Part shown: piece after piece, positions 7,625 through 64,000 of the stretch
Position numbering within the stretch: position 1 is the first letter of the stretch
Layout of the letters: every line of letters starts with the position of its first letter
Made by a program: the position numbers and the translations under genes
The notes under the pieces: generated by a model
What the model was told of the DNA's origin: nothing
Seen by the model: the letters and a program-made list of their open reading frames with translations, nothing else
Database searches by the model: none
Assembly: GCA_030562195.1 (NCBI GenBank)
Contig: JAUJPP010000012.1
Coordinates: 24,867,476 to 24,931,475, forward strand
DNA: 64,000 nt
Reading direction: 5' to 3'
DNA from: Nipponacmea schrenckii
Taxonomy: Eukaryota; Mollusca; Gastropoda; Lottiidae

Positions 7625-8990
7625 TATTTCAACCGTCTGATTGAAAATTGGAATGGTGTAAATTGATGATATCAGTGTCTCTGATACACATAACAAGTTT
7701 AGAAAACCTCTTTACAATCTCTTTAACTACAGACATCTGATTGAAAATTAGAATGGTGTAAATTGATGATATCAGTGTCCCTGATACATATAACAAGTTT
7801 AGACAACCTCTTTACAATCTCTTTAACCACAGACATCTGATTGAAAATTAGAATGGTGTAAATTGATGATATCAGTGTCACTGATACACATAACAAGTTT
7901 AGAAAACCTCTTTACAATCTCTTTAACAACAGACATCTGATTGAAAATTAGAATGGTGTAAATTGATGCTATCAGTGTCCCTGATACATATAACAAGTTT
8001 AGAAAACCTCTTTACAATCTCTTTAACCACAGATATCTGATTGAAAATTGGAATGGTGTAAATTGATATATCAGTGTCCCTGATACACATAACAAGTTTA
8101 GAAAACCTCTTTACAATCTCTTTAACTACAGACATCAGATTGAAAATTGGAATGGTGTAAATTGATATATCAGTGTCCCTGATACATATAACAAGTTTAG
8201 ACAACCTCTTTACAATCTCTTTAACCACAGATATCTGATTGAAAATTGGAATGGTGTAAATTGATACTATCAGTGTCTCTGATACACATAACAAGTTTAG
8301 AAAACCTCTTTACAATCTCTTTAACTACAGACATCTGATTGAAAATTAGAATGGTGTAAATTGATGATATCAGTGTCCCTGATACAATAACAAGTTTAGA
8401 AACCTCTTTACAATCTCTTTAACCACAGACATCTGATTGAAAATTAGAATGATGTAAATTGATAATATCAGTGTCCCTGATACACATAACAAGTTTAGAA
8501 AACCTCTTTACAATCTCTTTTATCATAGACGTCTGATTGAAAATTGGAATGGTGTAAATTGATGATATCAGTGTCCCTGATACATATAACAAGTTTAGAA
8601 AACCTCTTTACAATCTCTTTAACCACAGACATCTGATTGAAAATAAGAATGGTGTAAATTGATGATATCAGTGTCCCTGATACACATAACAAGTTTAGAA
8701 AACCTCTTTACAATCTCTTTAACCACAGATATCTGATTGAAAATTAGAATGGTGTAAATTGGTGATATCAGTGTCTCTGATACACATAACAAGTTTAGAA
8801 AACATCTTTACAATCTCTTTAACTACAGACATCGTATTGAAAATTAGAATAGTGTAAATTGATGATATCAGTGTCCCTGATACACTTAACAAGTTTAGAA
8901 AACCTCTTTACAATCTCTTTAACTACAGACATCTGATTGAAAATTAGAATGGTGTAAATTGGTGATATCAGTGTCCCTGATACACATGAA
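7625..8990 (+). repeat. Satellite array, about 98-bp unit (family S98, locus 1)
   Basis: About 14 head-to-tail copies of a unit that includes GATATCAGTGTCCCTGATAC and ACCTCTTTACAATCTCTTTA. Within each unit ATCAG and CTGAT can form a short stem. Copy lengths vary slightly because of one to three base indels. The same family occurs at 25.04-25.63 kb (opposite orientation), 34.69-34.96 kb (decayed) and 45.14-45.64 kb, with fragments near 38.11 and 47.15 kb. Reverse-strand frames of 123 and 65 codons are products of this repeat. Confidence 0.92.
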
Positions 8991-16655: not shown

Positions 16656-17018
16656 TAAATTTCAAATTTCAAAACTTATCAGGTGCTGCTTTTGAGACGA
16701 TACTTTTGATTGGTGAACGACCATCTAAGCGTCCAGTCAAATTAGATTTAGTCCTTGCATGAATATGTCTCTTTAAATGTTAAACAAAGCGAAGGACTTA
16801 TAAATCGAATATAACTAACTGAAGAGCTTTTAACCGAGAATTTTATTTCAGCGATTAAACATCATATTTCAACTTCCGGTTGAGGCGTCAAGTCGTCTGC
16901 TATAATTGGATCAATTTAAAGACTGAGTGCTGGATGAAATGAAGTGGAATGACTCCACGAACGACATTTTGGAAGCTTTATTTGACCGGAGAACACCCGA
17001 AGCTCTTTGTTCACGTTT
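16656..17018. other. Non-genic stretch
   Basis: Nothing recognised. Confidence 0.4.
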
Positions 17019-17170
17019 TAGATACACAATCCTCATCAGGACAGTTAGTTTTAGAAATGGATGTTAACTTTCTAATATAGGACTTAATGTTAGCTAATTG
17101 ACTAGAGCTCATCTCATACTGCTGACATGTTTTAGATATACAACCCTCACCATTACTAGTTGTAGAAATG
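17019..17170 (-). repeat. Decayed copies of the 43-kb hammerhead-like repeat
   Basis: Two units closely related to those at 43.15-43.33 kb lie in the same (minus) orientation, sharing the linker TAGGACTTAATGTTAGCTAA and CTGATGAGG with GATTGTGTATCT in the first unit. The GAAA core element reads AAAA in both, and the second unit has lost CTGATGA, so neither should be catalytic. Confidence 0.75.
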
Positions 17171-17650
17171 AAAGTTAGTATTATAATGGGTTTGGTTCGA
17201 GTAAAGAAAGGAATTCATCCTGATGTTCTGTAAATCTGATTGGATTAAAGAGTTAAACGACCTATTTTGATTGGCCAAATGCTTTGAATCGTGTAAAAAA
17301 AACAACCGTAAAATCTGTAAATGAATTTAATCGAAGTCATTGACGATCAAAATAAATGTCTGCAATTAGATTTCCCCCGCCTTTTATTCCCTAACACGTC
17401 TGCTTTCGAATGAAATTGAAGAGAATTAGAGGTAATTTGTGCCACAATGCTGACAAAGTGTGGCGGGAATTATTCGTGAAAATCGCATCAGAACATGTTT
17501 AGTCATGCACGCGTAAAGTTTAAACTGAAAGTTTGTCGTGACAGAAACAGTGAAATTGCTCTTCCCTAGGCATTATGGCAAATACACAACAAAGCGAAAA
17601 CTTGAAAATTGTTTTATCCACGCCACAAGGTGTTGGTTTGACATAGGACT
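17171..17650. other. Non-genic stretch
   Basis: No supported exon; a 65-codon ORF at 17538-17735 begins with GTG and runs into the array. Confidence 0.4.
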
Positions 17651-21640: not shown

Positions 21641-21972
21641 ATCTCAATCGAAATGTTAGAATTATTATAGATATACACCAATATACATGATTATATATTT
21701 ATTTTAATCCCCGAGTTTCTCTTTAGTGCGAAATTATATATTTAAATCCACAAGTCCTTAATCTTGTTACTTTCTCATCTCCGACTACGAGAAATAACTT
21801 GGTCAACTCTATTATATCTTTTGGTATATTTGTTTTATTCTGTTATTAATAGGCTAATACTGGGGATATAACGTAAACATGGTGTTAATATTACCGATTC
21901 TCCACGTCGTTCTGTCAATAACGTAATCATTTATTCATATTTTATCTAAGGATTTTTTTTTGTATTTTTCAG
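21641..21972 (+). other. Upstream region of the prohormone exon, with splice acceptor
   Basis: Includes the duplicated 90-bp segment (21.71-21.81 kb) and ends in a strong pyrimidine tract and AG at 21971-21972, so the coding exon is preceded by at least one untranslated exon that I could not place. Confidence 0.5.
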
Positions 21973-21974
21973 GC

Positions 21975-22385
21975 ATGATTCGAACGTGGCTTTCATTTAC
22001 CCTCTATTGCGTCCTATTCGTCATAGTGACGTCATCTAGGCAGAAACGACTCAGTGATTGGTTAAAATCTTCACTTCCGGTAATGGACGATGACGCTTGG
22101 TACAAAGAAAGTGATTTGAATCATCAACTTGTGAGTCAAATTTTGAGAGATATTTTGACCGAAAGAAACTTAGAAAGCGACGCCATTGATGAAGTTGTCG
22201 GTCAGTTCCGACATAAATTGGCAGATTCCAGAATTCCACAGAAGAAATCCAGTTGGAAATATTCTAATATACCCATTCAGACGAGATTTGCTGCCTTTGG
22301 ACAAAAGTTAGTTCCTGGACGAACCGGTTCCGGAGGCGATCATGGACCAACTATGTTACGTTATGGTAGAAGCGTTCATCATTAA
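21975..22385 (+). CDS. Secreted prohormone / neuropeptide-precursor-like protein
   Basis: One uninterrupted coding exon gives 136 residues. The ATG at 21975 sits three bases after a strong acceptor, and no upstream ATG is compatible with that junction. Residues 1-21 form a signal peptide (hydrophobic core SFTLYCVLFVIV), followed by Q-K-R, a dibasic convertase site. A middle segment is acidic and helix-prone. Near the C terminus Q-K-K is followed by about 41 residues ending M-L-R-Y-G-R, where Gly plus Arg would give a C-terminally amidated RY peptide; a short tail SVHH follows. There are no cysteines after the signal peptide, which argues against insulin-like, conopressin-like or luqin/RYamide-type precursors. 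The precursor design is clear but the family is not recognised; long amidated protostome peptides such as the NKY group are one candidate. Role is inferred: peptide hormone or neuropeptide released from secretory granules. Confidence 0.72.
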   Translation: MIRTWLSFTLYCVLFVIVTSSRQKRLSDWLKSSLPVMDDDAWYKESDLNHQLVSQILRDILTERNLESDAIDEVVGQFRHKLADSRIPQKKSSWKYSNIPIQTRFAAFGQKLVPGRTGSGGDHGPTMLRYGRSVHH

Positions 22386-25039
22386 ACAGCGCCTGCTTCT
22401 CCTGCTACAACAGACCAACCTCGTTACTATGGTTTCTTTCTTTCCTTCCGTTTCTTTCCTTTGTTTCTTCATTATTTATTTTGTGTTTTTCATATCGCCA
22501 CATACAGGATGTGTGTCATTAACAACGGATCTTCAGCTAATTCTTTCAAGACTTTTTTTTCAAATGTGGTGCCAAAAATATCAAGTATATTTCAAATATG
22601 GAAATCAAAAACTATAAATTGATACTCAATTATATAAGTTTGTCGTATCCGCTTCCTCGATAATTTGGAGGATGGATGTTTAAAGATTAATTGTAGGGGC
22701 CTACGCGATGCGGTTTTCTATTGTGTTAAAGAAAGAGAGGTGTGTTACAAAAGCGAATTGTGCAGACGAGAGACGCCATTACTGAATTAGGGGGATTATC
22801 ATTTATCTGGAATTCACCGGAATAAGCAATTATTAAAAAAAAAAACATCAGACAATTGACGCTACTGCTTTTCGCTTTACATATTTATTTACCTGCTTTT
22901 GATTGGTTTTATTTTTCAAACTGTGCAATTAAATGCTCTTTTAGAGATAGACTATATTAGTGGCCTGCAGATAATTGTATATTAAATGTCTAAAAATACT
23001 CGTTGTTAGAAATTATGTACATGATACTCCGAAAACAGAATTCTGTTTAAATAAAATGTTATTGGTGTTTATGTTTTAGTTTTGAAACCGCATTATCTTA
23101 TATCAAAGCAAAGCCCCCCCCCCCCCAACCAATCTCTTCTGTCCTATTAGCCCACAAGGTCCAGAAGAGTAGGACGTAAAACTCCAATCATTTCATTTCC
23201 CTACTGTGTATTCTCTTACAGCTTTTATCCGTAAGATTTCCCATATTGCGCACGACCATCTTCATTTGCCTTCTTTACTTTTGATTGCCTTTTTTCCCAA
23301 TTAACCACTTATCGGACGGTTTAACCAACTGTAATGATTTTATTTCTTGTTTGATTTAAATTATCAATGAAACAAAATAAAGGTTTTCTGGTACATTGGT
23401 GCCAAGTGGACCTAAAAATCTTTCAAAGAAATTATCTTAAACTATTCATTATGTATTACACTAAGCAGAATAATGGGCCTGAGGTATATAGCGAAAATGT
23501 ACTTGAACGCTTTGTGGGGCAAATTCTTGCAGTTAAGTTTTAATGCTTATTGCATGTAGCTATTTATTGGACACACGATCTGCATGATAATGTTTATGAA
23601 AAAAGGAAAAAGCGCTAGGCATCTTGACAAATATATCATCCACTCACCTAGCACCAATGAACCGTTGATAGAAATTTTCAGTGGATTCGCAAACCGCATT
23701 TTGGCAAGTGACATTAACTTGGTGAACCAGTCTACAAAACAACTGACCTTCGTCAGAAATATTTTGTAACCGTATCAAAAATGTTTTCAACGACAAAATT
23801 TGTATATTCATTGTAGATTTTCTTTTTCAGAATTTCTAGTCCAAAATAAAGCTTAATTAAAACTGTTCCTTTGACAATATATTTAGATTAAATCTATCTG
23901 ATTGAATCGGAAAGTTAGGGAAGAGTGATGTCCCTTGTGACTATTGGAAGTGACGAACTGTTGATAAATAACACCTAGACATCCAAATCAAAACTTTCAA
24001 CTTTACTTGGTCGATTTATTCAATGTTTTAAATCGGGTAAACTTGTGCGTCTAACAACACATAAGCTGACACTTCAATATACTCTTGAGGGGAGAAGGGC
24101 ATTTCATAAAGTCTCGTTCGCATTAAGCAATACATTTCCGTTAATCAATAGCAGACCAAAATCGAGAGTTGAAATCTATAGTAGTAGGTGTTTCAAAAAA
24201 AAAAGAGAAAGCATGATCTGATTCAATTGACGCACAACACTACTATAATGGTTAAAAGAGAAGTACCATCAGGTGTTTCAAAAAGATTAAGCCTTTTCTG
24301 CCTCATTCTCGAAACAGCAGCCTATATTATAATGACGTTATAAAACGCTTAAATTAAGTAGAATTGCAGGAACCACAGAATTCTAATTGAGAATTGTAAA
24401 GGTGCAAATTAATGCAATATAACTATAAACAAATCTCAAGAGAACCAAAAGCCATAAAATCACTGTCATTGCTTTAAAACAGACTATCTATTCATATCCA
24501 CAAAAATAGAATTACCCTCAAAAATAATGAAACGGAAAATATTTCAATCAAATAATATAGAGATAAAATAGGGACTGGGGGAATCGGATTGTTGAGAGAC
24601 TGGCGGATTGTAGGTCACGAGTTAAGTACACTAGAATAAGTAAAGATACACATAAAGAAAGAATAAAACTGAAAAGCATTCTGAACAAATTATCGGAAGC
24701 GTTGTATGTTATTAAATTCCCTGGCATTGTTTTGTCTCTAAACTCTATTTCTTGTACTTCGTGCCTAATTCTCTCTTTTCCCCAATTTCCCCACCAGGCT
24801 ATTTTCTTCTTTAACTAAAAAAAGTCGGGAAATATTGCCTCGGAAATCCGATACGGCTATTTGTACTAAAAGTGGTTTTATTTTACTAAAATCATGTTGA
24901 AATGAAACTAATAGCGTTGATGAGTAAATAATACTTTAGTTTATTTTCAACGAATGAGTTTTGGTTTGAAAAGATGAACATTGGCCTGTGGCGTTTGACA
25001 TTTAGCAGAAAAGTATATTTATTTTATGTATTATTAAAG
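22386..25039. other. Non-genic stretch with one SINE-like fragment
   Basis: Follows the prohormone stop. A family-B fragment lies at about 23137-23200 (CACAAGGTCCAGAAGAGTAG then GACGTAAAACTCC) just after a C tract at 23116-23127. A 61-codon ORF at 23584-23769 has no splice or homology support. The first few hundred bases are likely 3' UTR; AATAAA occurs near 23050. Confidence 0.4.
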
Positions 25040-25630
25040 GTATTGTAAAGAGGTTTTCTAAACTTGTTATGTGTATCAGAGACACTGATATCATCAATTT
25101 ACACCATTCTAATTTTCAATCAGACATCTGTGGTTAAAGAGATTGTAAAGAGGTTTTCTAAACTTGTTATGTGTATCAGAGACACTGATATCAATTTACA
25201 TCATTCTAATTTTCAATCAGATGTCTGTAGTTAAAGAGATTGTAAAGAGGTTTTCTAAACTTGTTATGTGTATCAGGGACACTGATATCATCAATTTACA
25301 CCATTCTAATTTTTAATCAGATGTCTGTGGTTAAAGAGATTATAAAGAGGTTTTCTAAACTTGTTATATGTATCAGAGACACTGATATCATCAATTTACA
25401 CCATTCTAATTTTCAATCAGACATCTGTGGTTAAAGAGATTGTAAAGAGGTTTTCTAAACTTGTTATGTGTATCAGAGACACTGATATCAATTTACATCA
25501 TTCTAATTTTCAATCAGATGTCTGTAGTTAAAGAGATTGTAAAGAGGTTTTCTAAACTTGTTATGTGTATCAGGGACACTGATATCATCAATTTACACCA
25601 TTCTAATTTTCAATCAGATGTCTGTGGTTC
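25040..25630 (-). repeat. Satellite array, about 98-bp unit (family S98, locus 2, inverted)
   Basis: About six copies of the 7.6-kb unit in the opposite orientation. Two blocks of three units look like copies of each other (short, short, long spacing), suggesting a higher-order duplication of about 300 bp. Confidence 0.9.
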
Positions 25631-27700: not shown

Positions 27701-28110
27701 GTATGGCAAACTCTTGGTATTGATTACAAGGATAACAACTTAGGTTCCAGGATCCTTTCTACCAGCTGGTCCTTGTCATACCTCTTGGTATTATTTACAA
27801 GGTTCCTTTCTACAAGTTGGTAATAAGCCAAACTTCTTGGTATTGATTTTACAAGGATAACAACTTAGGTTCACAAGGATCCTTTCTACCAGCTGGTCCT
27901 TGATCATACCTCTTGGCATTAGTTTACAAGGTTCCTTTCTACAAGTTGGTTCTTGATCAAACCTCTTGGTATTGATTTGACAAGGATAACAACTTAGGTT
28001 CCCAGGGATCCTTTCTACCAGCTGGTCCTTGGTCAAACCTCTTGGCATTGGTCTCTCTATAATTATCTGTACCCATTTGCAACTGGGTCAAGTGGAATAA
28101 TGAGTGAAGA
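27700..28110 (-). repeat. Family-A SINE 3' end with tandemly amplified tail
   Basis: On the minus strand the order is a family-A body fragment (about 28025-28110, with TGGGTACAGATAATTATAG) followed by about four units of its tail, each with GACCAAGGACCAGCTGGTAG and AAAGGATCC, spaced about 80-90 bp. The same body-plus-amplified-tail arrangement occurs in plus orientation at 42.25-42.89 kb. Confidence 0.75.
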
Positions 28111-31045: not shown

Positions 31046-33879
31046 ATGAAAAGAAGACTACGTCGTTATTCCGATAGATCAAATTGTCTGAAAGATTACG
31101 TCATCCCATTTTCGGCCGTGATTCGTCATGCTTCAACATGTAAGGTAAATTTGTCTAATTTAGGTGGAGGTTTCGATACTCTAACTTTATTCCAAGTTTT
31201 GCCTCCGTAGAAGATATCGTCTCTTGTGCCTAAAATTACATGGGGTTGCGTTCTATCTGAATTTCTGACATGTGCAAATACTAATTTTCATTTTCTTTAA
31301 TTGGTATTTGAAATTAGTTTTTACTTCTAGATCTTGTTTTATTATATTGTCTGATATTTATATTCACTTCTGTCCTTTTTTTTGCACTTAAGTCCCAACC
31401 CATCTTATATCCATGACGATCATAATCCTTTCCTCAACCTCCCCACCCTTTCCCAATTATTATAAAGTAAAGACATTCTATGTTAGTTGTAGAGTGAAAT
31501 CAAGATGATTCTTTTTGTATATTTCTTAAATCTATACACTTCTGCCCCCACCCTCCTTATTTCCATGACAATCCTGCCCTCAACCTCCTGCCACCCTCTT
31601 CCCACCCTTCACCTATGATTATAAAGTAAAAACTTTCTATGTTATTTGTAGACTGAGATCAAGATAATCCTATTTATTATATTTCTGATTTGTTTGCTGA
31701 TTTGGTTGAAGTCAAATCATGATGTATGCGGAGGGAAGAAACTTCTCAGAAGTCTGGTGAGTTAGTCTACTTGCCTTTAAATAGGTAGGCTACCCATAGT
31801 CTGTAAATATTATCACATACACATAGGTTTTTTAGCATACAGAAAGATTTAACAATAGCCTAAGATAATATTATGTGATGAGATTTAGGCATGTTTGACC
31901 AGCACTTGAAATACTAGTAAAGAACCTTATTTTATTGATTTATAGTAATTTGGACATTGAAAAGAGTTGATAACTATTACAGTCAAGGTATGAGATGCAG
32001 TTCTGAATAACTTGATATTGTTTAATAAGAATCATGTCAGGTATTGTATATGAAATATTATTTGTTTGTTTGCAGTGTACTGAATATCACAAGAAAGAAA
32101 TCAGTGGAGATATCTGCTATAGTTTATGTCACGAGAAGTTATTCGAGTTAAAACATTGTATAGATAATGATCCTCATATCAAGGTAGGTGTTACAGGAGA
32201 GGGTGACTCCGCCCATCCCCTTAATTGGGCATGTTCCTCACTCCTTAACTTCACTTGTACAGTATCCTAAAAGAAAGGTAAACTATGACAGATTTCACAT
32301 TCAGTCCAACACTTGTTTAAATCTAAGACCTGTTTGTTTCAGACATTCCTCCTTCCGGATAATTTAGTAGTACGGGTACCTGTTTCAATACTACATCCAG
32401 AGACCGACATCAGACTACCTTTTGGTATGACAGTCGAACAGTTCTCGGATCTGGGTCGTAACTATTTTAATTCCATATTGGGTCCGTCTCATCACCAAGA
32501 TCTAATTAATCGGCTTCTTCAATTCGCTGATTTTAACGGCAATCAAGAGGTAGGTCATTTATAAAGCATTTAGGCAATGTCTATTCTGAAAGGGGAAATA
32601 TTTACTTTACCAGCTGATAGAACTCAATTTCAGCTATCTGTATAGTCATCTAAATATTTACTATACCAGCTGATAGAGCTCAATTTCAGCTATCTGTATA
32701 GTCATCTAAATATTAACTATACCAGCTGATAGAGCTTAATTACAGGTATCTGTATAGTCATCTTAATATTAACTTTACCAGCTGATAGAACTCAATATAA
32801 GCTATCTGTATAGTCATCTAAATATTTACTTTACCAGCTGATAGAGCTCAATTTCAGCTATCGTATAGTATCTAAATATTTACTTACCAGCTGATAGAGC
32901 TCAATTTCAGCTATCTGTTTAGTCATCTAAATATTTACTTTACCAGCTGATAGAGCTCAATTTCAGCTATCTGTATAGTCATCTAAATATTTACTTTACC
33001 AGCTGATAGAGCTCAATTTCAGCTATCTGTATAGTCATCTAAATATTACTATACCAGCTGATAGAGCTCAATTTCAGCTATCTGTTTAGTCATCTAAATA
33101 TTTACTTTACCAGCTGATAGAGCTCGATTTCAGCTATCTGTATAGCCAGATATATAGAAATGATGTTATAATTTCAGTTGAGTCTTGGTGAAGTGCAATC
33201 TGTGTGGCGTCTCATCAACAACCGTGAATTCCTGCTACTGTATTTATTCCATAAGCAATCCGCGGTTCCGAATATCAACGGAACATGTGGAAGTCTATAT
33301 CGTTTTGAATATCATCCTAGAAATTACTTATATCATTCCAACAAATCAGGGTTTTTATCAGCCATATTCACGAACTCATATCGTTGGGGATTCCCTAATT
33401 TACATAATCGTCTAAAAATAGCTGTGGGTTTATTAGAGTTAGTGATTGACCTATCAGAGACTGAGGGATTTCCCTTCTTTCTGTGTAATATAGACTCCAA
33501 TTTATTTGGTTATACGGAGAAATATGAACTTGTGTTACATAACATGAGTGAATTAAAATCCGCGCAGATGTTGAAAAATATTTTCACAAATCAATCGTGT
33601 GTGAGAGACAGTGACTGTCAGTATTCCAGACAGTGTCGTAGCTGGTGTGAGAATAAAACCAATAAATGCTCCAATCAAATCGTCAACTCTCCTTTATATT
33701 ATGTGTGTGATATTTTACGCGAGTACATACTCATCGGTGAAACAGGTCACTATTACTATGATCTTAAACATTATTTAGAAAAATGTGTTCAACTAAGTCC
33801 CAATATGGTGGAATTTTCCACTTACATGAATGAATTTCATGCCTTTTTATGGGATTTTATTAAAAATGATGCTAAATAA
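31046..33879 (+). CDS. Divergent protein kinase domain 1 (FAM69/DIPK1)-like, ER type II membrane protein
   Basis: Five exons join in frame with GT-AG sites, all phase 0: 31046-31144, 31652-31756, 32076-32183, 32343-32549 and 33178-33879 (stop included), giving 406 residues, close to the family's usual 400-430. The N terminus is Arg-rich (MKRRLRR), then a single membrane helix at residues 38-52 and a Cys-rich luminal segment (C at 62, 69, 82 and 86). Residues 167-178 form a textbook EF-hand loop (D-F-N-G-N-Q-E-L-S-L-G-E) split by the last intron, as expected for the calcium-binding insert known in this kinase group. It is followed by VWRLINNREFLLLYLFHKQ and NGTCGSLYRFEY, typical of FAM69. The catalytic-loop region reads FLCNIDSNLFGY and the C-terminal lobe holds the usual Cys cluster (CVRDSDC). 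The DFG position is not clearly conserved, so activity is uncertain. Vertebrate DIPK1A/B/C orthology cannot be assigned by eye. Confidence 0.88.
31362..31680 (+). repeat. Tandem duplication of the DIPK1 exon-2 acceptor region (pseudo-exon)
   Basis: Two copies with a 159-bp offset. The second contains the real acceptor and the start of exon 2 at 31652. The first has a matching AG at 31491-31492 and reads S-E-I-K-M-I-L-F-V-Y-F-L against the genuine T-E-I-K-I-I-L-F-I-I-F-L, then diverges with no donor. It is a decoy or dead partial exon. Confidence 0.8.
32585..33150 (+). repeat. Minisatellite, about 59-bp unit, inside DIPK1 intron 4
   Basis: About ten copies of a unit with TTTACCAGCTGATAGAGCTC and AATTTCAGCTATCTGTATAG. 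Each unit carries AATTTCAG, matching the last eight bases of the genuine intron-4 acceptor (33170-33177). The array stops about 30 bp before exon 5. Confidence 0.92.
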
Positions 33880-39729: not shown

Positions 39730-41312
39730 ATGACTGCCGAGGATAGAGAAGTATTAAAAAAAATATTAAACTTAGAACCCCACCCCGAAGGGAATTTATT
39801 TGCTATAAAATGGATCGGGGATCGACAAGTTAACTTTGTAGAAAAAACTCAGTAAGTTGTTAAACTTAGGATATTTCCAGCATAATTTCTTTCTGTCTTC
39901 AAGTCTAAAATTTGAAGCGATCACGTTCTGAAAGACGAACCATGATCCTATTTTTCTTACTTCCAACGTAGATCGGAGAAAATGAAAGTTATCAATGTCT
40001 TTCATGTTAACATAATTTCCGTGTTTTACAGATTTTTTGAATTCGGCAAGAAATGATTTAGAAAGATGAACATTAATGTCAAGAAAACGAATTGATTGTT
40101 TTTTTCATCGTTTTTTTTTTTCAGACATGACGGTCCTAGAAATGTTGGTTCCAGTATTAACACCCTGTTGACAGCGCCGGATTTTATTTCCTGGCACAAA
40201 GTCTTGTCAGACGAGATTTATTTCTGGCATTCCGGTGGGGTGTTGAAGGTAGGAGAAAGGGGCGTATCCTGGGGGCGTATCCTGGGGCCTTATTCTTGGA
40301 AACTTAATTAAAATCAAATTCAGTTTTTTGTCAAACACAGTACATGTATTTTGATCGGATAATAAACGTAAATTTAGTGCATTCAATTCGATAATATTGA
40401 CCAAGAAGAAGGAAAGTGAATCTGCGCTGATTTTGTAAACAGAGTCAAAAATTGACGACGTGGAAACTCCTTATAAAACGGAGCAAAAAGTTATGAATAG
40501 TGGACGAAATCCGCTTAGGATAATTTTTAACCTACCAGAAAATGTCACTATTTCATTGGTTAAGACGTCTTATAACGTAAATTGATTGGTCAATATTTCG
40601 CGCCAATATGGTAACGTCGGCGTAGACTCCCATATTTTCACATCATTATTTTCTACGTGTGCTATTCATTTCCGATTTATTTTTTTGCAGGTACATTTTA
40701 TAGGAAAAGATGGCCGCCATGAATTCCAACTGCTGGGGGATGTATTAAAGAATGACGCGACCCAGTACCAAGTCGTTATTCCTCACGATGTTTGGTACGC
40801 AGCCGAGATCATAGAGGGAGAGCATGTCTTATTCAGCGCTGTAGTAATGCCAGGTAAGAATCACGACCGACTGCACTGGCCATGGAAGGCACTGGGTAAG
40901 AATCAGGTGCCATTTCTGTCATCCTAATGTGGAATGGTCTTGGATTTTTGTGATTATTCTTGTTTCTTTGACTAAGAGTGGAGGAAGTCAAGTCACGGGG
41001 GAGGTTGCAGTATAAATGCGAAAGGATTTCCGAGGACTCGTGTTTAAATTAATTTGTAACTCCGACTACCAAGTCATCCAGATTATTATTTTTGTTATAA
41101 TTTACCTATTTGGATACTGCACGACGACATCCGCCTATTGATACTTAAAGATGGCGGTGATTAAATAGAATGTCAAACATAAGGACGTTAAACACCATTT
41201 TATTTCAGGCTTTGAGTTTAAAGATTGGAGCGCTGGTGATCGAGGAGCCATGATGGCCGAGTTTCCACAACACAGGGACCTGATAACCAGATTAACTAAA
41301 AATATCGTTTAA
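39730..41312 (+). CDS. DUF985 / Cupin_5 family protein
   Basis: Four exons with GT-AG junctions and matching phases: 39730-39851, 40125-40248, 40691-40853 and 41209-41312 (stop included), giving 170 residues, the normal size for this family. The N-terminal motif LNLEPHPEGNLF is the family hallmark (usually LxPHPEGGxF). It is followed by ISWHKVLSDEIYFWHSG, the cupin metal-site region in which W-H and E-x5-H supply candidate ligands. The later block YQVVIPHDVWYAAEI matches the family's VVPxGxWQAA segment, and MPGFEFKDW the C-terminal VxPGFxFxDFE. Proteins with this domain are single-domain, probably cytosolic beta-barrels; no reaction is firmly established for animal members. The second Gly of the PEGG motif is Asn here. 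Confidence 0.88.
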
Positions 41313-42244: not shown

Positions 42245-42895
42245 TTGGAGGGTGCGATGTAGTTCATTCGGTTATAGTGTTGGAATTTAAAAGAGAATTG
42301 ACTGTAAAATAGAGTCAGTAATTCGCGAAGTGACCGTTGAAGTACTCAATTTGAAATAAGTGGTACGTATAAAGAAAACCAAAGGTTTTGACAAGACCAG
42401 CTGGATAAAGGATCCTTGAAAATAATTGTTATCCTTCTAAAATCAATACCAAAGGTTTTGACGAAGGACCAGCTGTAGTGAAAGGATCCTTGGAAATCAA
42501 TTTTATCCTTGTAAAATCAATACCAAGAGATTTGACCAAGGACCAGCTGTTAGAAAGGATCCTTGTGAAAATAAGTTGTTATCCTTATAAAATCAATACC
42601 AAGAGGTTTGAACAAGGACCAGCTGGTAGAAAGGATCCTTGTGAAAATAAGTTGTTATCCTTATAAAATCAATACCAAGAGGTTTGACCAAGGACCAGCT
42701 GGTAGAAAGAATCCTTGAGAACCCAAGTTATTATCCTTGTAAGATCAATACAAAGAGGTTTGACCAAGGACCAGCTGGTAGAAAGAATCCTTGAGAACCT
42801 AAGTTATTATCCTTGTAAAATCAATACCAAGAGGTTTGACCAAGGACTAGCTGGTAGAAAGGATATACATGAGAATATAGGTTGTTAACCTTGTA
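42245..42895 (+). repeat. Family-A SINE remnant with amplified tail array
   Basis: A decayed tRNA-like head (GTAGTTCATTCGGTTATAGT at about 42261-42280) leads into about seven tail units of roughly 83 bp, each with TTTGACCAAGGACCAGCTGG, TAGAAAGGATCC and TTATCCTTGTAAAATCAA. Confidence 0.8.
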
Positions 42896-43146
42896 AAGTT
42901 TTATTGTTCTATTTTTGTATATATAACAATTGTCTATTATGAGAAGAAAATGAAAGGAATGTTGTAGGTTGACCTCGTTGATGTTTAAATTTAAAAGAAA
43001 ATTATTTTTATTCACGTGGCCACATTCCGTAATCCGATGCCGGCGTCTATTTATTGTTAAAACTTCAAAGAACACAAAATATTCTTCGACATTTTTTAAT
43101 ACGCCCACTTCTTGATATCGAATTTGATAATTCTCATATTCGTTTA

Positions 43147-43188
43147 CTGCCGACACATGTTTCAGATACACAATCCTCATCAGGACAG
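43147..43188 (-). ncRNA. Predicted hammerhead ribozyme A (type I, short stem III)
   Basis: Read on the minus strand, all core elements are present in order. CTGTC is the stem-I 5' strand and is followed by CTGATGA (C3-A9). GGATTGTGTATCT makes a 4-bp stem II with one G-U closing pair. GAAAC follows, then a minimal stem III closed over ATGT. GTC gives H17 = C, with cleavage expected after it. GGCAG is the stem-I 3' strand and pairs with CTGTC over 5 bp, one of them G-U. All invariant hammerhead positions are intact. Short-stem-III hammerheads of this kind are known from animal Penelope-like elements, retrozymes and satellite RNAs and often act as dimers. Confidence 0.7.
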
Positions 43189-43262
43189 CTAGTTTTAGAA
43201 ATGGAGGTTAACTTTCTTATATAGGACTTAATGTTAGCTAATTGACTAGAGCTCATCTCATA

Positions 43263-43302
43263 CTGCTGACATGTTTCAGATACACAATCCTCATCAGGAC
43301 AG
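43263..43302 (-). ncRNA. Hammerhead-like motif B (imperfect)
   Basis: Same core as motif A and the same strand, 116 bp away. Two bases are missing after GAAACATG, so the cleavage-side strand reads AGCAG and stem I starts with a C-A mismatch. Activity is doubtful. Confidence 0.45.
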
Positions 43303-43577
43303 CTAGTTTTAGAAATGAATTAACGTTCAACCCTTATTGACCCATTAACTCCCACACCCCCGCTGATGTATAACTTTTATTTGAAGTCAAAACATGTTTA
43401 ACATTTACATGGCCACTCCCTTGTATGTGGGCACTTGTTTGTTATCAATCTAACTCGGTGATACTTATATCACGAGGCAAAGTGTAGGGTGGGACAGACC
43501 CCGTCTTGTGAATCCCGCCTAAAATTCAATTAAGATGAGCTTTGGTCAATTAGCAAACATTTACTCCTATTTTAGAG

Positions 43578-43617
43578 CTGTCCTGATGAGGATTGTGTAT
43601 CCGAAACATGTCAACAG
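43578..43617 (+). ncRNA. Hammerhead-like motif C (imperfect, inverted)
   Basis: Plus strand: CTGATGA at 43583-43589, stem II GGAT/ATCC with a fully Watson-Crick closing pair, GAAAC at 43603-43607 and GTC at 43610-43612. The stem-I 3' strand AACAG leaves a C-A mismatch next to the cleavage site, as in motif B. Confidence 0.45.
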
Positions 43618-43685
43618 TATAAGATGATCTCTAGTCAATAGGCTAACATTAAGTCCTATACATTTTAAAACTAGCTATTTTAGAG

Positions 43686-43727
43686 CTGTCCTGATGAGGA
43701 TTGTGTATCTGAAACAGCAGTCGATAG
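43686..43727 (+). ncRNA. Predicted hammerhead ribozyme D (type I, short stem III)
   Basis: Plus strand: CTGTC, CTGATGA (43691-43697), stem II GGAT/ATCT, GAAAC, loop AGCA, GTC (43720-43722), then GATAG. GATAG pairs with CTGTC over 5 bp including one G-U. Compared with motif A (GGCAG) two stem-I positions differ yet both pair, which supports selection on structure. All invariant core bases are present. Confidence 0.7.
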
Positions 43728-43785
43728 TAGGAAATGAAGTATAAACGGATACGTTTAGATTTTCTGAATTTGTTTTACTGACCAG

Positions 43786-45139: not shown

Positions 45140-45640
45140 CACTACAGATATCTGATTGTAAATAAGAATGATGTAAATTGATGATATCAGTGTCTCTGAT
45201 ACACATAACAAGTTTAGAAAACCTCTTTACAATTTCCTTAACTACAGACTTCTGATTGAAAATTAGAATGGTGTAAATTGATGATATCAGTGTCTCTGAT
45301 ACACATAACAAGTTTAGAAAACATCTTTACAATCTCTTTAACTACAGACATCTGATTGAAAATTAGAATGGTGTAAATTGATGATATCAGTGTCCCTGAT
45401 ACACATAACAAGTTTAGAAAACCTCTTTACAATCTCTTTAACTACAGATATCTGATTGAAAATTAGAATGGTGTAAATTGATGATATCAGTGTCCCTGAT
45501 ACACATAACAAGTTTAGAAAACCTCTTTACAATCTCTTTAACCACAGATCATCTGATTGAAAATTAGAATGGTGTAAATTGATATCAGTTCCCTGATACA
45601 CATAACAAGTTTAGAAAACCTCTTTACATCTCTTTAAGCT
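45140..45640 (+). repeat. Satellite array, about 98-bp unit (family S98, locus 3)
   Basis: About five copies in the same orientation as locus 1. The final unit is truncated before CTTTAAGCTT. An isolated fragment (GATTGTAAAGAGGTTTTCTT) follows at about 47.15 kb in the opposite orientation. Confidence 0.9.

Positions 45641-48228: not shown

Positions 48229-64000
<15,772 letters not shown>

Follow-up and report, generated by a model that had tools for sequence, protein, structure and literature searches.

Tandem minimal hammerhead motifs in an inverted pair of dimeric repeats that looks like leftover Penelope-like element ends in the limpet Nipponacmea schrenckii

Genomic Context of the Locus

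The window analyzed here is a 64-kb stretch of the N. schrenckii genome. Its forward strand carries a 235-codon open frame with a PIP49_C (FAM69 protein-kinase) domain (nt. 33172-33876, E 4.4e-39), likely an exon of a host gene, as well as frames with a partial Cupin_5 (DUF985) domain (nt. 40586-40924, E 1.4e-07) and a partial NT-C2 domain (EEIG1/EHBP1; nt. 63522-63740, E 5.6e-10). A 141-codon forward frame (nt. 21960-22382) is best matched by a hypothetical protein of Lottia gigantea (91% over 97% of its length), the only other match being from Patella caerulea (64%), and belongs to no Pfam family; its end, GPTMLRYGRS, resembles that of a neuropeptide precursor with an amidation site. A tRNA scan of the window returned none.

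Several tandem arrays share units, as judged by eye. A ~100-bp minisatellite unit forms three arrays (nt. 7636-8987, 25034-25629, and 45141-45637), one of them on the opposite strand, as judged from their consensus units. Just left of the locus under study, a 76-bp tandem array (nt. 42378-42897) shares much of its unit, in the opposite orientation, with the array at nt. 27707-28049.

At the locus itself (nt. 43145-43729), four hammerhead-type motifs follow one another as minus, minus, plus, plus, and the first-pass annotation had placed all four correctly. They lie in two arms, each comprising two copies of a ~90–116-bp repeat unit with a minimal type I hammerhead at its end (Table 1).

Table 1. 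Coordinates (nt. of the 64-kb window) of the repeat arms, the hammerhead motifs, and the third copy
Feature	Coordinates	Motif span	Strand	Description
Minus arm	43145-43328		-	Tandem dimer; downstream unit (43145-43260) whole, upstream unit truncated at its 5′ end
Minus outer motif	43145-43190	43147-43188	-	Minimal type I hammerhead; downstream, B-type
Minus inner motif	43261-43304	43263-43302	-	Minimal hammerhead; upstream, A-type
Middle segment between arms	43329-43530			Halves not inverted copies of each other
Plus arm	43531-43729		+	Two tandem units, 43531-43619 and 43620-43729
Plus inner motif	43576-43619	43578-43617	+	Minimal hammerhead; upstream, A-type
Plus outer motif	43684-43729	43686-43727	+	Minimal hammerhead; downstream, B-type
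Third dimer copy	17012-17172		-	Lone, non-inverted, decayed

Anatomy of the Hammerhead Motifs

All four motifs retain CTGATGA, GAAA, and GTC, and the invariant hammerhead core (CTGANGA, GAAA, A15.1-U16.1, and H17) is present in each. Cleavage is predicted 3′ of C 43152 (minus outer), C 43268 (minus inner), C 43612 (plus inner), and C 43722 (plus outer). Stem II is fully paired (four of four) throughout, and stem I pairs at five of five positions in both outer motifs, with one G·U pair each, and at four of five in both inner motifs, where a C×A mismatch occupies the pair adjoining the cleavage site. Stem III consists of two pairs and a loop of 4 nt in the outer motifs (AC-AUGU-GU in the minus, AC-AGCA-GU in the plus) versus 2 nt in the inner ones, whose stem III strand is the palindromic ACAUGU (self-complementary at 6/6 positions). 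The outer stem III strands are likewise self-complementary, at 8/8 positions in the minus motif (ACAUGUGU) and 6/8 in the plus motif (ACAGCAGU).

With three helices and an open stem I, the topology is of type I as far as the sequence can tell, and the best predicted folds differ from it. On this reading, the four motifs are minimal type I hammerheads whose stem III is very short. The intact core and five-base stem I previously described for the outer motifs were both seen. The accompanying idea, that a layout with only the outer ribozymes intact is something special, is not supported, given that all four cores are intact.

Motif Searches and Covariance Models

A pattern defined by the core and its spacing matched the 64-kb window at exactly these four places, compared with 0.06 matches on average over 100 dinucleotide shuffles. 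Similarly, a stem-requiring descriptor returned five rows, which correspond to the same four motifs with one reported twice, against a mean of 0.07 motifs and a maximum of one in 100 shuffles.

We also built our own covariance model from 28 hammerheads in viral contigs, hand-picked for like length and full stems from the 132 motif instances among the matches listed, and containing no sequence from the window. Searched without filters, and with E-values that are rough owing to a short calibration, the model gave 52 matches in the window, of which the four motifs took the top four places. The plus inner motif scored best (22.4 bits, E 0.00013), followed by the minus outer (21.1 bits, E 0.00035), plus outer (18.4 bits, E 0.0027), and minus inner (15.3 bits, E 0.028) motifs, and the fifth match had an E-value of 0.66. 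That an inner motif leads this ranking, and that the inner form recurs in the third copy of the repeat near 17 kb, likewise speaks against any special intactness of the outer pair.

Rfam reported no hammerhead in the whole window at its curated cut-off, and none at E ≤ 10 in the 1 kb around the locus or the 65 bases around the plus outer motif, the matches there being to other families and at chance level. The first-pass annotation had held that outer motifs scoring below the covariance-model threshold would refute its claim; in Rfam they do score below it, so that this refuting condition formally applies. As a control, applied at that cut-off alone, we took 8 viral loci from at least 120 that match a strict canonical hammerhead pattern. 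Three of their 15 pattern sites reached the 34-bit cut-off, each with 36.1 bits and all with one identical sequence, and the remaining 12 were missed; stem I is complete in 13 of the 15. The control thus weakens the Rfam miss at the cut-off but, confined to that threshold, has no bearing on the miss at E ≤ 10. Relying on Rfam alone can mean missing such minimal hammerheads.

The strict canonical pattern matches at least 120 stretches in the viral contigs, where one locus (L071) carries four. An exact search with the limpet family's own motif gave no match in either the viral contigs or the genome contigs, and a shorter version of the pattern matched one viral contig.

Predicted Cleavage and Folding

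Cleavage at adjacent sites is predicted to release RNAs of 116 nt from the minus arm and 110 nt from the plus arm, in agreement with the 110–116 nt proposed earlier. A 2-nt loop, as in the inner motifs, is unable to close a hairpin. The self-complementary stem III strands would instead fit two motifs that pair with each other through a merged stem III, i.e., a double hammerhead. Such an arrangement has been described for newt and viroid motifs (PMC6155905), and type I hammerheads with a short stem III that act as dimers are likewise on record (PMC6155905, PMC7761336), as are axolotl hammerhead motifs with a palindromic tetraloop (PMC7229834).

Single motifs showed no folding advantage over their shuffles, with z between −0.88 and 0.27 for the five stretches folded, and imposing the exact hammerhead pairing on trimmed single motifs cost 4.5–11.3 kcal/mol relative to the best fold of each. 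Within the dimers, the penalty for a single hammerhead is 7.3 kcal/mol (inner) and 7.0 kcal/mol (outer) for the minus arm; for the plus arm, the inner motif costs 0.4 kcal/mol and the outer one 14.6 kcal/mol. The full double hammerhead lies 15.3 and 18.1 kcal/mol above the best fold of each dimer, and a half form, with the core of the upstream motif cleaving the downstream site, costs 6.7 and 6.2 kcal/mol. As model values, these energies would argue against easy hammerhead folding, but they are not decisive, because the tertiary stability of the core is left uncounted by such models.

Repeat Units, Positional Subtypes, and the Third Copy

Within-window BLAST aligned the upstream unit of the minus arm (nt. 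43261-43328) to nt. 43145-43216 of the downstream unit with 90% identity. In both arms, ACATGTCA is the sequence of the upstream (A) motif; the downstream (B) motif is two bases longer and carries a G 3′ of the cleavage site. The A form also sits upstream in the third, 17-kb copy of the dimer. Given this shared position in both arms and the 17-kb copy, what had been described as a defect beside the cleavage site of the inner motifs is a positional subtype of the family; the C×A mismatch is real in both.

Compared arm to arm, the A motifs differ at two places and the B motifs at five, with no core base changed. Helices I and II account for four of these differences, two per motif pair, and pairing is preserved at each. 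The other three B differences fall in the stem III loop, and it is these that lower self-complementarity to 6/8 in the plus arm. The fixed A/B ribozyme pair, whose members have stem III of unequal length and a different base 3′ of the cleavage site, offers a small natural test of division of labor in a double hammerhead.

The 17-kb copy is decayed, with GAAA changed to AAAA in both motifs and CTGATGA also lost from the upstream one, and it was absent from the matches of our covariance model at E ≤ 10. By within-window BLAST, the minus arm (nt. 43156-43319) shares 91% identity over 164 nt with this copy (nt. 17012-17172) and 82% over 162 nt with the plus arm, and is thus closer to the former. 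The comparison covers three copies, all dimers and all within the 64-kb window. The 3′ end falls at the same base in both arms, 7 nt past the cleavage site, and the 5′ ends differ; this combination would be as expected for 5′-truncated retro-insertions.

The middle segment weakly resembles the repeat unit (scores reached by 7/500 and 14/500 shuffles, among seven comparisons) and possibly consists of decayed units. The stretch just ahead of the plus arm (nt. 43490-43540) looks like one more decayed hammerhead unit, its score being the one reached by 7/500 shuffles.

Origin of the Repeat and of Its Inverted Layout

We consider it fairly probable that these are non-coding copies of a dispersed dimer repeat, PLE-like (Penelope-like element) pLTR leftovers spread by PLE machinery in trans. 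The locus looks like the leftover ends of a known class of mobile element and not like a new replicating RNA. Under this model, the two hammerheads in a sense transcript of an arm would pair through their self-complementary stem III strands, and the resulting double hammerhead would cut at its GUC sites and release an RNA of 110 or 116 nt. New copies would arise by reverse transcription, with the PLE machinery supplied in trans, and the inverted layout would stem from two insertions instead of one palindromic element. PLE-type tandem minimal hammerheads are present in both arms, and the arms are putative pLTRs. The earlier suggestion of a mobile or replicating small RNA is supported insofar as the hammerheads sit in a repeated, probably mobile, unit; it is not supported for the palindrome as that unit.

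The hallmark of a PLE is an ORF with a telomerase-like reverse transcriptase, often with a GIY-YIG endonuclease. Pfam searches (E ≤ 0.1) of all six frames gave no match at 41.0–46.0 kb or at 14.6–19.6 kb, and hence no reverse transcriptase or GIY-YIG in either region. By eye, no reverse transcriptase was recognized among 81 open stretches of the window (at least 65 codons, outside listed tandem repeats). We infer PLE descent for the repeat, and because no reverse transcriptase was found beside either locus, we file it only as PLE-like pLTR sequence and not as a PLE.

One frame of 119 codons on the minus strand (nt. 42821-43180), which starts at an ATG within the minus outer hammerhead core, was rejected as PLE coding sequence, given that it runs into flank without a counterpart at the other arm and then into minisatellite, and that open stretches of 121–134 codons also occur. 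It is probably a product of chance.

Several published observations bear on the PLE-like reading. Type I hammerheads of the minimal kind, with stem III reduced or absent, are described as tandem copies in the pLTRs of PLEs and, for the most part, as motifs scattered through animal genomes (PMC7761336; also PMC6155905, PMC8490949). The first-pass annotation, which could put no name to the unit, was therefore too pessimistic as to its kind. In rotifer Penelope elements, pLTRs of ~180–220 bp occur inverted and head-to-head or solo, with unrelated DNA between them, and the main text of that paper does not mention hammerheads (PMC3846280). In a PLE of Anolis, a hammerhead straddles the ORF start, and cleavage in vitro is reported only with the PLE protein added (PMC11167929). 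The in vivo role of minimal animal hammerheads is still called a mystery (PMC7761336). Our searches of the open-licence literature gave no paper that combines the hammerhead ribozyme with a head-to-head inverted repeat and retrotransposon, and none on hammerhead ribozymes with Lottia gigantea; one paper there mentions hammerhead ribozymes along with MITEs and terminal inverted repeats.

An alternative we regard as unlikely is a self-standing miniature retrozyme, in which the unit is excised as a 110–116-nt RNA, circularized by a host ligase, and reinserted with outside enzymes. The unit-by-unit tandem structure, with a plus arm of two units, and the predicted releases of 110 and 116 nt would suit it, as would the lack of any coding domain in the two regions searched. 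Against it, animal retrozymes are repeats of 150–450 bp that give RNAs of ~170–400 nt (PMC7229834), and the unit here is smaller, at ~90–116 bp with two units per copy. Moreover, all three copies seen are dimers, and subtypes A and B hold their places in both arms, which suggests that it is the dimer that spreads and not the monomer. A bolder version appears more doubtful still, namely that the unit spreads independently as a miniature retrozyme whose two-unit copies make 110–116-nt circular RNAs via a double hammerhead, with upstream and downstream ribozymes specialized in their roles. If true, it would be a miniature retrozyme smaller than the ~170–400-nt animal retrozymes described.

The inverted layout calls for its own explanation, and we favor PLE-like copies inserted twice over a palindromic unit. 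The palindrome had been proposed as the unit, but the dimer at 17 kb stands alone and is not inverted, and the greater closeness of the minus arm to that copy indicates that the palindrome is secondary. From these alignments, the head-to-head arms, ~200 bp apart, are probably two insertions of one dispersed repeat. Head-to-head arms with differing 5′ ends recall the inverted pLTRs of a single PLE insertion, but the arms are not near-identical (82%); given that such pLTRs would be expected to be alike at birth, and that the minus arm is nearer the 17-kb copy, the resemblance is at most an analogy. A transcript across both arms is predicted to form a hairpin (−264.9 kcal/mol, lower than shuffles by 19 standard deviations) in which the ribozymes would be buried; this hairpin is a consequence of the layout and not evidence of selection.

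PLE target-site duplications measure ~8–10 bp and do not accompany every insertion. At the borders of the locus, we found no candidate longer than a 6-mer, which is matched at 13% of random positions too; a 7-mer was present away from the borders. A DNA element of foldback or MITE type, with hammerheads lying by coincidence in its terminal inverted repeats, would account for the long inverted arms and their coinciding outer ends. We hold it to be very unlikely in view of this unconvincing target-site duplication, the lone dimer at 17 kb, and arms that are not each other's closest relatives. There is equally little to recommend a local inverted duplication of one insertion, with a palindrome of no biological role: the arms are indeed of the same family, 200 bp apart, and 82% alike, but the minus arm has its nearer relative at 17 kb, the 5′ ends of the arms differ, and neither the outer flanks nor the middle segment shows inverted similarity above shuffles. 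Finally, a chance resemblance to hammerheads, which could appeal to the absence of an Rfam hammerhead at both thresholds, is scarcely credible against four motifs where shuffles average 0.06 (pattern) and 0.07 (descriptor), ranks of first to fourth in our covariance model, and an Rfam cut-off that also misses 12 of 15 control sites.

Comparison with Known Systems

Minimal PLE hammerheads were reportedly described by Cervera and de la Pena in 2014 and Lunse et al. in 2017, and those of PLEs and Terminons by Arkhipova et al. in 2017. With regard to likeness by description, the schistosome W-elements share an extremely short stem III and a satellite-like, putatively mobile repeat with the limpet family, but they are another repeat in another host (PMC8490949). 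Metazoan non-LTR retrozymes share tandem type I hammerheads in non-coding repeats, and their hosts include molluscs; they span 150–450 bp, in contrast to the ~90–116-bp limpet unit with its minimal stem III (PMC7229834). The pLTRs of Adineta vaga Penelope elements offer a parallel for head-to-head repeats of ~180–220 bp, solo copies, and unrelated DNA between repeats, but the limpet arms are not near-identical and their target-site duplication is unconvincing (PMC3846280).

As for the minimal hammerheads of PLEs and Terminons, the limpet locus differs in that no PLE coding sequence was found beside either copy, and the portions of that literature bearing on such motifs do not name the limpet sequence family (PMC7761336, PMC6155905, PMC8490949). 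The two have in common a type I topology, a full core, a very short stem III, a tandem arrangement, and copies dispersed in an animal genome (PMC7761336, PMC6155905, PMC8490949), and the N. schrenckii repeat adds a limpet family to the minimal hammerheads of animal genomes.
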